Positions 6,632 to 57,173 of a stretch of DNA of 64,000 nucleotides are shown here, in pieces. A model generated the notes under the pieces. That model searched no databases, had not been told where the DNA came from, and was given only the letters and a program-made list of their open reading frames with translations. The DNA is from Candidatus Palauibacter poriticola (GTDB taxonomy: Bacteria; Gemmatimonadota; Gemmatimonadetes; Palauibacterales; Palauibacteraceae), in the NCBI GenBank assembly GCA_012270965.1, contig JAAXHJ010000023.1:17462-81461 (forward strand), read 5' to 3'. A program made the position numbers and the translations under genes. Positions within the stretch are counted from its first letter, which is position 1, and each line of letters starts with the position of its first letter.

Positions 6632-7042
6632 ATGGAGGGGCATGAGAAGGGACAAGGACGAGGGAGCGCGCCGGTGCTGCCGGAGGAGCGAGAACCGGCG
6701 CGCCGCGGCGAGCCACGCAGCGTGGAGAAGCCATGGGGGCGCGAGGTGCGGTACGCGCACACGGACCGCTACGCGGGGAAGATCCTTGAAGTGGAGAGGG
6801 GGCACATCCTCTCGCTGCAGAAGCACCTCGTGAAGCACGAGACGATGCTGCTCCAGTCCGGGCGCATGCGCTTCACGCTCAACGATGCGGTGTTCGAGTG
6901 GCTCCCGGGCGAGGTCGTCTCGATCCCGCCGGGGAATGTGCACCGCATGGAGGCGCTCGAGGACAGCGTCATCCTCGAGGTGAGCACGCCGGAACTGGAC
7001 GACTTGGTGCGCCTTGAGGACCGCTACGGACGGATCCGTTGA
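6632..7042 (+). CDS. Cupin domain protein, mannose-6-phosphate isomerase-like
   Basis: The 136-residue product contains one cupin barrel of the type found at the C-terminus of mannose-6-phosphate isomerase/GDP-mannose pyrophosphorylase. A KPWGREVRY opening near residue 33 is followed by the first cupin motif around LQKHLVKHETMLLQSG and the second around PGNVHRMEALEDSVILEVST, giving the usual His/Glu metal ligands. Enzymatic sugar-phosphate isomerase activity is possible but cannot be assigned. The ATG at 6632 is the first start; a GTG at 6722 directly before the conserved KPWG is an alternative that would remove a low-complexity leader. A TATCAT box lies at 6618-6623 without a convincing -35. 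The gene stands alone between the defence island and the selenoprotein gene. Confidence 0.7.
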   Translation: MEGHEKGQGRGSAPVLPEEREPARRGEPRSVEKPWGREVRYAHTDRYAGKILEVERGHILSLQKHLVKHETMLLQSGRMRFTLNDAVFEWLPGEVVSIPPGNVHRMEALEDSVILEVSTPELDDLVRLEDRYGRIR

Positions 7043-7050
7043 AGGGTCGC

Positions 7051-7155
7051 GCCGGCTTCGCTCGTCCGTGCGGCGCCGGCTTGGCTGGTCCGTGCGGCAC
7101 CGGCTTCGCTCGTTCGTGCGGCACCGGCTTCGCTCGTTCGTGCGGCACCGGCTTT
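7051..7155. repeat. 24-bp tandem repeat, four copies plus a partial
   Basis: Units of 24 bases start at 7051, 7075, 7099 and 7123, with a partial fifth from 7147. The third and fourth are identical. The core is GCCGGCTTCGCTCGTCCGTG and variants. It sits between the stop of the cupin gene (7042) and the stop of the selenoprotein gene (7194), two converging genes. There are no spacers, so it is not a CRISPR array. Confidence 0.85.
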
Positions 7156-7193: not shown

Positions 7194-7412
7194 CTAACGC
7201 AGCGCGTCGAGGATCTCCTCATGGGACGGGTGCCGGCCCGTGGCGGCCTTCGAATAGATGAGCCGCCCATCCGCCACGACCTCGAAGCGGCCGCCGCCGG
7301 AGGGGATCATCTCGATTGTTGGATCCTCGAACCGTTCCCTGAGGGTCGCTGCCAGACTGGCGGCCTTCGGTTCATAGTTTCAAGCGGTGCAGTATTCGAT
7401 CGATATGTGCAT
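7194..7412 (-). CDS. SelW-like (Rdx family) selenoprotein with in-frame UGA as selenocysteine
   Basis: From the ATG at 7412 the frame reads MHISIEYCTA, then TGA, then NYEPKAASLAATLRERF and on to a TAG at 7194: 72 residues if the TGA is decoded. This is a complete Rdx/SelT-SelW-SelH thioredoxin-like protein. The TGA (7380-7382) falls exactly on the redox position of the family's CxxC/CxxU motif (Cys8, Sec11). The rest is well conserved, including IEMIPSGGGRFEVVADG and the final LIYSKAATGRHP segment. A strong Shine-Dalgarno (GGGGGAGGGA) sits 5 bases before the start. The proposed role is a small thiol/selenol redox protein. A hairpin with a GUC apical loop lies just downstream of the UGA. The alternative is a Cys-to-stop mutation or base error (TGC to TGA). 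Confidence 0.75.
7348..7364 (-). promoter_or_regulatory. SECIS-like hairpin downstream of the UGA
   Basis: On the transcript, 15 bases after the UGA, GCCGCCAGUCUGGCAGC can fold into a short stem with one C-A mismatch and an apical AGUCU. The distance from the UGA to the loop (about 22 bases) and the GUC in the loop resemble the Escherichia coli fdhF SECIS element, whose loop is GGUC. Bacterial SECIS elements are expected at just this place inside the coding sequence. Confidence 0.5.
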
Positions 7413-7505
7413 GCTGTCCCTCCCCCTCTCGGTTCTCACGCTGCTCCGCTACGGCCTTGGACGGCCGCGGTGTGGAGTTCGATTCGGCCCGCGGCACGTT
7501 CGCCG

Positions 7506-7535
7506 TTGACCCTGTGCGGCACAATGGGGTATCTA
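7506..7535 (+). promoter_or_regulatory. Promoter of the glutamate dehydrogenase gene, apparently leaderless
   Basis: TTGACC (7506-7511), an 18-base spacer and TATCTA (7530-7535) form a good sigma70-type promoter. The ATG of the downstream gene is at 7541, five bases after the -10 box, so transcription would begin at or beside the start codon. Confidence 0.5.
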
Positions 7536-7540
7536 CGGGC

Positions 7541-10500
7541 ATGAAACACAAGCCTGCGCAGCAGACGGACCTCGGGCCCCTGATCCGCGAGGTCGAATCG
7601 CGGCTCCCGGGCGCGCCCGTGGACGCGGTGCGCGGTCTCTCCCGCCGTCTATTCAGCCGCGGCTACGCCCACATCGCGGATGGCCGCCCCGTCGACGCCC
7701 TGGCCGACGATGTCGCCGCCCTCTACCGCCTCGTGGCCGGCGCCGCCGCCGGCGAGATCGCGATCCGACTCGCCTGGGACGAGGACGATCCGTCGCGCGG
7801 CGTGCTCCAGACGGTGATGGAGGACCGGCCCTTCATCGTCGACACGCTGCGCGAGTACCTCCACTCGGCGGGACTCGACATACCACTCCTCCTCCATCCG
7901 GTCCTCGTGGTGGATCGCGACGGTTCCGGCCGCGTGCTCGACATCCGCGACCACTCCGCCGACGGCACGCGGATGTCCGTCGTCCACATCGTGCTCGACG
8001 ACGCACACCACGCGGAGGTTCGGGAGACGCTGGAATCCGAGGTGCGGCGGCGCCTCGAACTCGTGAGGGCCGTCACCGAGGACTTCTCCCCGATGATCGA
8101 GCGGGTGGGGACGCTCGTCGGCGAACTCGAGGACAAGCGGAGCGAGACGCCGTGGCGCAGCACCGAGTTCGAGGAGATCCAGGATCTCCTGCGCTGGCTC
8201 GTGGACCCCGGTTTCGTCTTCCTCGGCTATCGCGCGTACCACATCGAGACGGATGACGCCGGCCGCGACTGGATCCGCGTCGAGGAGGGGAGCGGGCTCG
8301 GCATCCTCAGGGACGACGACAAGTCGAAGTACCACGAACCCCGGCCCCTGGACGAACTCCCCGCCTACCTCCGCGCCCGGGTGCTGGGCGGCCCGCTTCT
8401 CATCATCTCCAAGACCAACGCCCAGAGTCCGATTCGGCGCAACGTCCGCATGGACTATGTGGGAATCAAACGTCTCCGCCCGGACGGGACGGTGTGCGGC
8501 GAGCACCGCTTCCTCGGTCTGTTCACCGCGAAGGCGTTCTCGCAGGACGCCTCCTCCATCCCAATCCTGCGCCGCAAGCTGCGCGAGATCCTTCAGTTGG
8601 AAGCCGCTCCCCCCGGATCGCACGACTACAACGTCATCCTGGGGACGTTCAACTCGATGCCGAAGGAGGAATTGTTCCTCGCCTCGGTGGAGGAGATCCG
8701 CTCGGTCATCGACGCGGTCATGGCGACCGGAGGCGGGGACGACGTGCGGGTCACCGCGCGTCCCGACCAGCTCGGCCGCGGCGTCCAGCTCCTCGTCATC
8801 CTCCCCAAGACCCATTTCTCGGGGCAGGTGCGGAGGCGGCTGCAGGCGGCGCTGATCGAGGCTTACGGGGGGACGCTCCTCAACTACCACCTTGCGCTCG
8901 GCCAGGGCGACCAGGCGCGCCTCCACTTCTATCTGGCCCACGACCCGGACGAGGTGGGGTCGGTCGATCTCGACGCCGTCCAGGCCAAGGTCCGTTCGAT
9001 CGTCCGCACGTGGGAGGAACGCCTCGAGGACGCGCTCGATGCCGTCCACGGTCCCACGCGAGGCCACGAACTCGCGACGCACGTCGTGCGTTTCTCGACC
9101 GGCTACCAGGCGGCGATGGACATCGACACCGCGGTCGAGGACGTGGCCTGTCTCGCGCGGCTGGCCGAGACGGGCGAGAGCCAGGTCCTGCTCAAACGGT
9201 CGCCGGGAGAGGGGGACGGGCGACACTACCAGCTGCGGCTATACGCCCGGAAGGGTCACTACGTCCTGAGCGACGTGATCCCCACGCTCGAGAACCTGGG
9301 GCTCCGGGTGCTCGACTCGCTGCGCTTCACGATCCAGCTCAGGGACGAGACGTCCGACGACCCGGAGGAGACGTTCGCGGCGCGGGTCCAGTCCTTCGAG
9401 GCGGAGGCGCGGCGCGCCGGCGACCTCGACATCGCGGCGGCTCAGGACCGGATCGGCGACATGCTGCGGGCCATCCGGGCGGGGCTCGCGGAAGATGACC
9501 GGCTGAACGAACTCGTCGTGACCGCCGGTCTCACGTGGCGGGAGGTCTCGGTCCTCCGGGCCTACGCGGGCTACACGTTCCGCATCGGCGCCGTCGCCGC
9601 CCCCACGGGTGGCCAGTTTCCGCTCACGGCGTACCCGGACATCGCGCGCTGCGTCTTCCGGGCCTTCGAGGCGCGCTTCGATCCGGAGGCGCGGGAGGGG
9701 GCGGCCGACGCGATGCGGCGTCTGAAGCGCGAGTTCACGCGCGGGCTGGCTTCGGTACGCGGGATCGAGGACGACCGGACGCTGCGGCGGATGATGGACC
9801 TCGTCCACGCCAGCGTGCGCACGAACCACTACCGGGGCGAGTTGCGCCGGTCCCCTCTCCTCGCGCTCAAGATCTCGAGCCGCTCCGTCGACTTCATTCC
9901 GGAGCCGAAGCCGAAGCACGAGGTCTACCTGCGCGGCCCCCGCACGGAGGCTGCCCACCTGCGCATGGACGACGTGGCGCGCGGCGGGATCAGGTGGAGC
10001 GACCGCTACGGTGATTTCCGGGTGGAAGTGCTCGGGCTCGTGAAGACGCAGAGGGTGAAGAACGCGGTCATCGTGCCCGGCGGCGCGAAGGGTGCCTTCA
10101 TCGTGAAGGGGCTGCCGGATGATCGCGAGGCGCGGCTTGCGGCGGGGCTGGACAGCTACCGGGACTTCATTCGGGGGCTGCTGGAGGTGTCGGACGACGT
10201 CGTCGATGGCGAGGTGACGCGACCGCGGGCGATGGTGATCCACGACGGACCCGACCCCTACCTCGTCGTCGCGGCGGACAAGGGGACGGCGAAGAACTCG
10301 GATACGGCCAACGAACTCGCGGCGGAAGCGGGCTTCTGGCTCGATGACGCCTTCGCTTCCGGCGGATCCCAGGGGTACGACCACAAGAAGGAGGGGATCA
10401 CGGCCCGCGGCGCGTGGGAGTGCGTGAAGCGCCACTTCCGGGAAGCGGATGTCGACTACGAGAACGAACCCTTCACGGCAGTCGGCATCGGGGACATGAG

Positions 10501-12382
10501 CGGCGACGTGTTCGGCAACGGGATGCTGCTCAGCAAGCAGATCCAGCTCGTCGCCGCCTTCGATCACCGCGACATCTTCCTCGATCCGAATCCGGATCCG
10601 CAGGCATCGTGGGAGGAACGGAAACGGCTGTTCGACCTTCCCGCTTCGTCGTGGGCCGACTACGACGCCGAACTTCTGAGCGAGGGGGGCGGCGTCTACG
10701 ACCGTACGGAGAAGCAGATCCCCCTCTCGCCGCAGATCCGCGAGCGCCTCGCCATTGATCGCGAGGAGATGAACGGAAACGAGTTGATCCGCGCCATCCT
10801 GTCGGCGCCGGTCGACCTCCTCTGGAACGGCGGCATCGGCACGTACGTGAAGGCGAGTTCGGAACGCCACGCCGATGTCGGCGACCCGAGCGGCGATCCC
10901 ACGCGGGTCGATGCGACGGCCATTCAGGCGCGGGTCGTGGGGGAGGGCGGGAATCTCGGCTTCACGCAGCGCGCGCGGGTGGAGTACGCGCTCCGCGGGG
11001 GGAGCATCAACACCGATGCGGTGGACAACTCCGCCGGGGTCGACATGTCCGACCACGAGGTCAACCTCAAGATCCTCCTGGGCGCGCCCCTGTCGCGCGG
11101 CGCGATCGACTACGAGGCGCGCAACGACCTGCTCCGCGAGTGTACGGACGAGGTCGCGTGGAAGGTTCTCCGCAACACGTACAGCCAGAGTCTCGCCATC
11201 AGCCTCGACTACATCCGGGCGCGGCGCGCGCCCGCGCCGTTCCATGAGGTGATCCAGCGCTTCGAGCGGGAGGGCATCCTGGATCCGGCCCTCGAATACC
11301 TGCCGGCGGGGGAGGAACTCATCGAACGGGAGAACGTCGGGGCGCACCTCACGAGGCCGGAACTCGCCACGGTGATGGCCTACTCGAAGCTTCACCTCAA
11401 GCACGCGCTCACGGAGTCCAGCGTGTCCCGCGACCCGGCCATGATGGAACTCGTGGAGGACTACTTCCCCTTCGGGGCGCTGAAGGAGGTCGAGACGTCC
11501 GACCTCGAGGGGCACCGGCTGCGCCCAAACATCTCGAGCATGCTATTGACGAACCGCTACGTGGACCGCATGGGCGCCACGAGCCATATCCGGCTCATGG
11601 AGGAGACCGGCCGCGCCGCCGCGACCGTCGCCCGCACATGGTACGTCGCGTCACGGATCGCCGACGCCGAGGATCTGTACGAGCGGCTGCGCGTCGCGGA
11701 CGTCCGCATGCGGAGCGGGGCGCAGAACGAGTGCTACTTGGCCATGGCCGGTGCGCTGACGCGCGCGACCCGCTGGCTCTTGGAGCGAACCGACCCCGCG
11801 GAGCCGGTCAGCGCGGCGATCGAATGGTTGCACGATCCCGTGCGCGCGGTTCGCGAGGCCCTGCCGGAACTGCTCACCGCCGAGCGGCTGGAACGTTTCG
11901 AGTCCACCTGCTCGCTACACGAGATGGACGGACTCGATCCTGAGGGCGCCGCGCAACTCACGACCTTCCGCTACGTGGACGAACTGCTGCCCATCGCCAG
12001 CCTCATCCGGGAAACGGGCGCCGGTACGCTCGAGGTCGGCGCCGTGTACTTCGGGCTCGCCGAGGAGATCGACTTTCCGTGGCTGCGGGGACGCGTGTAC
12101 TCGGTGGCGGCGGAGGATCCGTGGGACCAGAGAGCGGCGCGGATCCTTGTCGCGCGGCTCGAGCTGGCGCGTTCGCGCATGGCGGCGCAGATCATCGCCC
12201 GCGCCGAGGCGTCGACGACGGAGGACGCGATGCGATCCTTCCGGCGCCGGAACGCAGTGGGATTGAGCCGGATTCGGAATGTGATCGCCGATGTCCGGAG
12301 CGCCGGGGCGGGGCTCTCCGGGCTCGTCGTGGCCATCGATGCCATCAGCGATCCGGGGATCCTGGAACCTCCGGATCGCTGA
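7541..12382 (+). CDS. gdhB: NAD-specific glutamate dehydrogenase, large (about 1600-residue) type
   Basis: This very long protein (1613 residues) matches the bacterial large NAD-glutamate dehydrogenases, which oxidatively deaminate glutamate to 2-oxoglutarate. A long N-terminal regulatory region with ACT-like segments occupies about the first 700 residues. The catalytic core follows, with RGGIRWSDRYGDFRVEVLGL, VKTQRVKNAVIVPGGAKGAF and the dinucleotide-binding part near GIGDMSGDVFGNGMLLS and EGGNLGFTQRARVEYALRGG. The ATG at 7541 is preferred because it lies just after a promoter; an in-frame ATG at 7457 would add 28 poorly conserved residues. The gene converges on glutamine synthetase only 13 bases downstream, so the two opposite glutamate reactions are neighbours. 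Confidence 0.93.
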   Translation: MKHKPAQQTDLGPLIREVESRLPGAPVDAVRGLSRRLFSRGYAHIADGRPVDALADDVAALYRLVAGAAAGEIAIRLAWDEDDPSRGVLQTVMEDRPFIVDTLREYLHSAGLDIPLLLHPVLVVDRDGSGRVLDIRDHSADGTRMSVVHIVLDDAHHAEVRETLESEVRRRLELVRAVTEDFSPMIERVGTLVGELEDKRSETPWRSTEFEEIQDLLRWLVDPGFVFLGYRAYHIETDDAGRDWIRVEEGSGLGILRDDDKSKYHEPRPLDELPAYLRARVLGGPLLIISKTNAQSPIRRNVRMDYVGIKRLRPDGTVCGEHRFLGLFTAKAFSQDASSIPILRRKLREILQLEAAPPGSHDYNVILGTFNSMPKEELFLASVEEIRSVIDAVMATGGGDDVRVTARPDQLGRGVQLLVILPKTHFSGQVRRRLQAALIEAYGGTLLNYHLALGQGDQARLHFYLAHDPDEVGSVDLDAVQAKVRSIVRTWEERLEDALDAVHGPTRGHELATHVVRFSTGYQAAMDIDTAVEDVACLARLAETGESQVLLKRSPGEGDGRHYQLRLYARKGHYVLSDVIPTLENLGLRVLDSLRFTIQLRDETSDDPEETFAARVQSFEAEARRAGDLDIAAAQDRIGDMLRAIRAGLAEDDRLNELVVTAGLTWREVSVLRAYAGYTFRIGAVAAPTGGQFPLTAYPDIARCVFRAFEARFDPEAREGAADAMRRLKREFTRGLASVRGIEDDRTLRRMMDLVHASVRTNHYRGELRRSPLLALKISSRSVDFIPEPKPKHEVYLRGPRTEAAHLRMDDVARGGIRWSDRYGDFRVEVLGLVKTQRVKNAVIVPGGAKGAFIVKGLPDDREARLAAGLDSYRDFIRGLLEVSDDVVDGEVTRPRAMVIHDGPDPYLVVAADKGTAKNSDTANELAAEAGFWLDDAFASGGSQGYDHKKEGITARGAWECVKRHFREADVDYENEPFTAVGIGDMSGDVFGNGMLLSKQIQLVAAFDHRDIFLDPNPDPQASWEERKRLFDLPASSWADYDAELLSEGGGVYDRTEKQIPLSPQIRERLAIDREEMNGNELIRAILSAPVDLLWNGGIGTYVKASSERHADVGDPSGDPTRVDATAIQARVVGEGGNLGFTQRARVEYALRGGSINTDAVDNSAGVDMSDHEVNLKILLGAPLSRGAIDYEARNDLLRECTDEVAWKVLRNTYSQSLAISLDYIRARRAPAPFHEVIQRFEREGILDPALEYLPAGEELIERENVGAHLTRPELATVMAYSKLHLKHALTESSVSRDPAMMELVEDYFPFGALKEVETSDLEGHRLRPNISSMLLTNRYVDRMGATSHIRLMEETGRAAATVARTWYVASRIADAEDLYERLRVADVRMRSGAQNECYLAMAGALTRATRWLLERTDPAEPVSAAIEWLHDPVRAVREALPELLTAERLERFESTCSLHEMDGLDPEGAAQLTTFRYVDELLPIASLIRETGAGTLEVGAVYFGLAEEIDFPWLRGRVYSVAAEDPWDQRAARILVARLELARSRMAAQIIARAEASTTEDAMRSFRRRNAVGLSRIRNVIADVRSAGAGLSGLVVAIDAISDPGILEPPDR

Positions 12383-54136: not shown

Positions 54137-54195
54137 AACGTCCATCCGAAGGCGGTCTGCGGTACGGCCGTCCGTCCCCTATCTTACCGACGGTC

Positions 54196-57173
<2,978 letters not shown>

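Follow-up and report, generated by a model that had tools for sequence, protein, structure and literature searches.

A Probable SelW-like Selenoprotein Gene Interrupted by an In-Frame UGA in a Palauibacter-Lineage Genome of the Gemmatimonadota

Introduction

SelW-like selenoproteins were on record in bacteria by 2005 at the latest (PMC1088965; also a 2008 survey), and the gene described here thus adds to a known kind. In the excerpts of these sources, SelW-like was the family with the most genes both in the Sargasso Sea survey (48 genes, function unclear; PMC1088965) and in the GOS survey (427 genes; PMC2398784). The available part of a third study places it among the families for which Sec-using organisms have very few Cys homologues, if any (PMC1794560). 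Further excerpts report that epsilonproteobacterial SelW genes were overlooked in annotation (PMC4607533) and that sel genes are transcribed in hadal sediments (PMC8938466). Neither SelW nor Gemmatimonad is mentioned in PMC13188914, PMC9312934 or PMC12013277, and the Palauibacterales paper PMC10469786 contains no selenium term. Within a partial coverage of the literature, titles and abstract openings held no description of a Gemmatimonadota selW-like gene or of a selW-phosphofructokinase pair.

The marine survey sequences are among the closest known counterparts of the locus examined here. As far as the excerpts of both surveys go (PMC1088965, PMC2398784), their SelW-like proteins and ours are alike in being small, SelW-related CxxU proteins whose SECIS has a small apical loop containing a G, whereas the present gene is placed in a Gemmatimonadota genome with its own Sec machinery. 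A second close system is the NCBIfam family NF041051 (SelTWH_Campy), whose model the window protein matches (see below), together with the epsilonproteobacterial SelW described in the available part of PMC4607533; it belongs to a different phylum.

Results and Discussion

The gene and its predicted product

The window, by which we mean the whole stretch of 64,000 nucleotides analyzed, contains a small gene with these elements:

7194..7412, minus strand: putative selW-like (Rdx family) selenoprotein gene, 72 codons plus TAG, from translation, Pfam, NCBIfam and predicted fold
7380..7382, minus strand: in-frame TGA, putative selenocysteine codon, residue 11 of a CTAU (CxxU) motif
7418..7426, minus strand: Shine-Dalgarno-like purine-rich stretch GGGGGAGGG, read directly from the sequence, 5 nt upstream of the ATG

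The frame opens with ATG at 7412-7410 and closes with TAG at 7196-7194, and translation reveals a single in-frame TGA, at 7382-7380. The coordinates and residue numbers (Cys8 and Sec11) given by the first-pass annotation proved exact, and the ribosome-binding signal that it had placed before the ATG corresponds to the purine-rich stretch at 7426-7418. The 72-residue product (7412-7194, MHISIEYCTAUNYEPKAASLAATLRERFEDPTIEMIPSGGGRFEVVADGRLIYSKAATGRHPSHEEILDALR) carries the CTAU motif at residues 8-11. Its proposed membership in the Rdx family is confirmed by three profiles, all above cut-off: Pfam PF10262 (Rdx; E 9.4e-21, 74.3 bits against a cut-off of 22.6), NCBIfam NF041051 (E 7.4e-29, 99.8 bits against a curated cut-off of 88) and TIGR02174 (62 bits against 34.2). 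NF041051 also matches all 49 aligned members, that is, the window protein and 48 relatives, at E 0.001 or better.

The AlphaFold model (pLDDT 96.9, pTM 0.85) has the element order E-H-E-E-E-H-H and a thioredoxin-like fold in which the CxxU motif follows strand 1 (residues 2-8 of the model). The best PDB matches of this predicted fold by Foldseek are SelW-related crystal structures, with TM up to 0.92, and a sequence search returns the same proteins. The bacterial structures 2fa8, 2obk, 2oka, 2ojl, 2p0g and 3dex share the fold at a TM (query) of 0.77 to 0.92 and 24 to 34% identity; we take them to be CxxC proteins of the subfamily with a WLLRAAWMAQELL-like helix, a sequence type also encountered among the Gemmatimonadota matches (L075-L077). 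Mammalian selenoprotein W, a CxxU protein with a eukaryotic 3'UTR SECIS, likewise has a thioredoxin-like fold and is more distant (2npb; sequence E 1.2e-7, TM 0.66).

Conservation of the UGA codon

A pattern-based scan of a species genome collection retrieved the 48 relatives, at 41 to 94% identity, the nearest of which include Candidatus Palauibacter (Gemmatimonadota). The Sec codon is TGA in the window and in every one of them (49/49); the relative with 94% identity, L018, which comes from another record, has the same TGA. To extend this to the phylum, 298 Gemmatimonadota genomes were sampled, 151 of which gave a match to the family alignment. Among the 150 match rows listed (G013, G148 and second matches of G070 and G145 are left out), 146 contain one TGA. 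The window and the fetched regions of one-TGA rows make up a set of 146 loci, in all of which the Sec codon was re-checked as TGA. Of the four rows without a stop, only that of G128 is a Cys version of the selW-like gene. The other three (G195, G051 and the second G212 match) had been considered as such versions too and were rejected, since they fall in a different, CxxC subfamily of Rdx.

Conserved sequence had been said to continue past the UGA to a normal stop, and so it does, up to the TAG: dN/dS after the UGA ranges from 0.06 to 0.42 between the window and nine relatives, indicating that this stretch is under purifying selection. In the ten codons before the UGA the ratio is 0.13 to 1.45, above 1 in two of the nine pairs, with very few sites. 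Since the window is known from a single MAG, one might suspect that a Cys codon was misread as TGA by sequencing error, or that the gene is a decayed pseudogene. The recurrence of TGA at the equivalent codon in 49/49 and 146/146 loci, independent records included, together with the low dN/dS beyond it, makes such an explanation vanishingly improbable.

Selenocysteine machinery of the host genome

The window's assembly (3.56 Mb, 94.3% complete, 99 contigs) contains, alongside the selW-like gene, all four components for which a search had been proposed: SelA (406.3 bits), SelB (365.7 bits), SelD (364.8 bits) and tRNA-Sec (79.7 bits; anticodon TCA (UCA) by ARAGORN). An Rdx search of the same genome finds one gene, that of the window. 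The selD gene at L066 (G000:C34:123614-124537) has one in-frame TGA of its own, in HGAGUACK, so that its product is itself probably a selenoprotein. A genome-wide code in which UGA means Trp was ruled out, as neighboring ORFs stop at TGA and several relatives end their selW-like gene with TGA.

Across the phylum sample, SelA was found in 139 of the 146 UGA-form genomes and in 84 of the 152 others (Fisher p 1e-16, a value that ignores relatedness). The seven UGA-form genomes in which none was found are all drafts of 82 to 96% completeness. Conversely, 81 genomes of the sample have SelA and no SelW-like match; five of these belong to the window's genus, where the gene therefore seems dispensable.

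A SECIS-type hairpin maintained in relatives

A hairpin with a GUC loop had been placed about 22 bases after the UGA:

7348..7364, minus strand: SECIS-type hairpin, GUC loop at 7357-7355, 6/7 pairs in the window, synonymous covariation in relatives

The element, GCCGCCA-GUC-UGGCAGC at 7364-7348, has a stem of 4 bp, a C-A mismatch and 2 bp, and its loop begins exactly 22 nt past the UGA. A bacterial SECIS model, quoted in the available part of PMC13188914, specifies a loop of 3-9 nt with G in the first two positions, a stem of 4-16 bp, a UGA-to-loop distance of 16-37 nt and a minimum free energy of at most -7.5 kcal/mol. The loop, stem and distance of the window hairpin agree with this geometry. 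Against the energy limit the hairpin, with its one mismatch, is borderline: it reaches -5.8 kcal/mol alone and, with two to four flanking bases, -7.4, which falls slightly short of it; a 29-nt segment that adds a second small hairpin reaches -9.8 kcal/mol. Folding the 53 nt that start at the UGA gives no more stable a structure than shuffles do (z 0.00), and an Rfam scan of the stretch matched no SECIS family, returning only U7, on the other strand and below its gathering score. Folded alone, the window hairpin is thus uninformative to weak as support for a SECIS, and since it is unexceptional by itself, its reality rests on the relatives.

Over the window and 48 relatives, 315 of 343 stem cells are paired, and the hairpin is perfect in 28 of the 49 sequences. 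When synonymous codons were drawn at random according to the usage of each locus (2000 draws), the means were 232 paired cells and 1.7 perfect hairpins (maxima 254 and 8), and permuting same-residue codons within columns gave 288 and 12.9 (maxima 297 and 21); related sequences are not independent, so these comparisons are not probabilities. Three divergent sequences (L058, L064 and L065, with 2, 5 and 4 of 7 pairs) were dropped from the covariation alignment, leaving 46 of 49 sequences, 43 of them distinct. In this alignment 94.0% of cells pair, 20 cells show changes on both sides (3.5 on average when shuffled), and the covariation score reaches 0.276, against 0.121 when shuffled and 0.03 to 0.11 for slid partners. 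Counted by pairs, two have changes on both sides in the 46 sequences, which is not above shuffled (1.7; 352/500). In the 146 Gemmatimonadota loci, 107 hairpins have 7/7 pairs, 38 have 6/7 and one has 5/7, and the loop begins with GU or GG in 145. Of the 18 loci formed by the window and L018-L034, in which AGT makes up 4.5% of serine codons, 17 use it as codon 19. Over the 146 loci it is AGT in 67, GGT in 62, AGG in 14 and another codon in 3; codon 19 is therefore not always serine, and the AGT bias is confined to the narrower set. Taken together, the alignments indicate that the hairpin is maintained across relatives by synonymous covariation beyond two codon nulls, as would suit the SECIS-type element proposed earlier.

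These data also bear on whether translation simply ends at the UGA, or whether an ordinary near-cognate tRNA reads it through. Elsewhere in this genome UGA serves as a normal stop, for example in the neighboring glutamate dehydrogenase and cupin ORFs, and the window's hairpin is weak on its own. Yet the genome encodes the full Sec machinery, the hairpin is conserved among relatives, the sequence is conserved up to the later stop, and a relative without selA has TGC instead of TGA (see below), so that we regard termination or readthrough as exceedingly improbable.

A natural cysteine version

The selW-like gene of G128 (locus L074, G128:C1) carries TGC where its relatives have the Sec codon; the genome is a single contig with a stated completeness of 100%. 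SelA was not found in this genome; no SelB scores above cut-off (best 165 bits, a level also seen for a second gene in SelB-bearing congeners), nor does any tRNA-Sec (best 43.9 bits). The congeners G004, G028 and G125 have SelB above cut-off and TGA forms. Codon 19 of the G128 gene reads GCG, the GU loop of the SECIS is lost, and the gene lies in surroundings that match those around the UGA form of a congener (L084). G128 thus represents, judging by these comparisons, a natural Sec-to-Cys replacement, a single case.

The Cys form in G128 means that Cys is tolerated at the Sec position. A protein of mixed Cys/Sec content might then be envisaged, in which the Sec pathway would sometimes insert cysteine at the UGA, with thiophosphate in place of selenophosphate; thiophosphate-dependent Cys insertion is known from work on other organisms. 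The near-exclusive retention of UGA argues that Sec itself is selected, and we hold partial Cys insertion here to be very improbable.

The Rdx match, the Sec machinery, the conserved TGA and the covarying SECIS-type hairpin all support the selenoprotein reading of the first-pass annotation. The window gene, from a Palauibacter-lineage bacterium of the Gemmatimonadota, almost certainly encodes a functional selenoprotein of the SelW-like (Rdx family) type, its UGA being decoded as selenocysteine; we infer Sec insertion from the gene, its codon, the machinery of the genome, the conservation of the SECIS in the family and the predicted fold. The coding-region hairpin just past the UGA would recruit SelB-GTP-Sec-tRNA(Sec), which would decode the codon as selenocysteine. 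Cys8 and Sec11 of the 72-residue thioredoxin-like product would form a reversible selenenylsulfide, and the product would pass electrons to or from a thiol partner. A thiol/selenol redox activity by such a Cys8-Sec11 cycle is suggested by the motif and the modeled fold.

Genomic neighbors and the phosphofructokinase pairing

In the window the gene lies between two ORFs of the opposite strand:

6632..7042, plus strand: cupin-type mannose-6-phosphate isomerase C-terminal domain, convergent (Pfam PF01050)
7457..12382, plus strand: NAD-glutamate dehydrogenase ORF, divergent, TGA stop (Pfam PF05088)

Within the window's family, 7 loci have a divergent glutamate dehydrogenase upstream, and 8 have downstream a minus-strand ORF of one family, possibly an antisense frame. 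As a functional clue for this family the neighbors were set aside, there being no obvious functional link. Between the selW-like and cupin genes there is a 24-bp tandem array of 4.3 copies (window 7052-7154), whose unit occurs nowhere else in the window's genome at up to 2 mismatches. Elsewhere in the window, a TPP riboswitch is found at 54189-54287 (61.5 bits).

Outside the window, Gemmatimonadota SelW-like genes have a recurrent phosphofructokinase neighbor, which is new. Neighbor clusters include antisense ORFs of GC-rich genes; they were used as a lead only, and the counts for phosphofructokinase were then taken from a motif search and from tblastn. Both put a phosphofructokinase gene immediately downstream of the SelW-like gene, in the same orientation, at 102 of the 146 loci, for example:

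L083, 3200-4321, plus strand: phosphofructokinase next to the SelW-like gene
L078, 1855-2964, minus strand: phosphofructokinase next to the SelW-like gene

Of the 104 loci with a phosphofructokinase by tblastn, 102 have it no more than 200 bp downstream, one has it upstream and one has it on the other strand. Two of the neighboring proteins were checked, and both are Pfam PFK. The two genes often touch or overlap: a 4-base overlap between the nearest pfk start codon and the selW stop is seen in 27 of the 102 pairs, the start guess being rough. The pairing occurs in families f3 (44/55), f4 (51/60), f5 (4/4) and f8 (3/3), 102 of 122 together, and is absent from f1, the window's own family (0/10), f2 (0/2), f6 (0/10) and f9 (0/2). 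Among the first 48 relatives the pfk motif appears only at L033, L044 and L046, all titled Gemmatimonadaceae, and the one phosphofructokinase found in the window's genome is on a different contig. The commonest upstream neighbor family (within 1200 bp) is found in 36 loci only, all f4. The Cys version in G128 keeps the pfk pair.

Shared ancestry of the region could be part of the reason for the pairing. From the adjacency in 102 of 146 loci, the less widely shared upstream neighbors and the pair kept in the Cys version, we tentatively put forward that the Gemmatimonadota SelW-like selenoprotein might be dedicated to 6-phosphofructokinase, as its redox partner or its regulator, and that the window's lineage would have kept this protein while the gene pair was split; we consider this rather unlikely as it stands. 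For the window itself, the outcome is that a small UGA-interrupted gene has been identified. For the family, the spread of SelW-like genes across Gemmatimonadota, the Sec-to-Cys case and the phosphofructokinase neighbor together provide a testable lead on the target of the protein.
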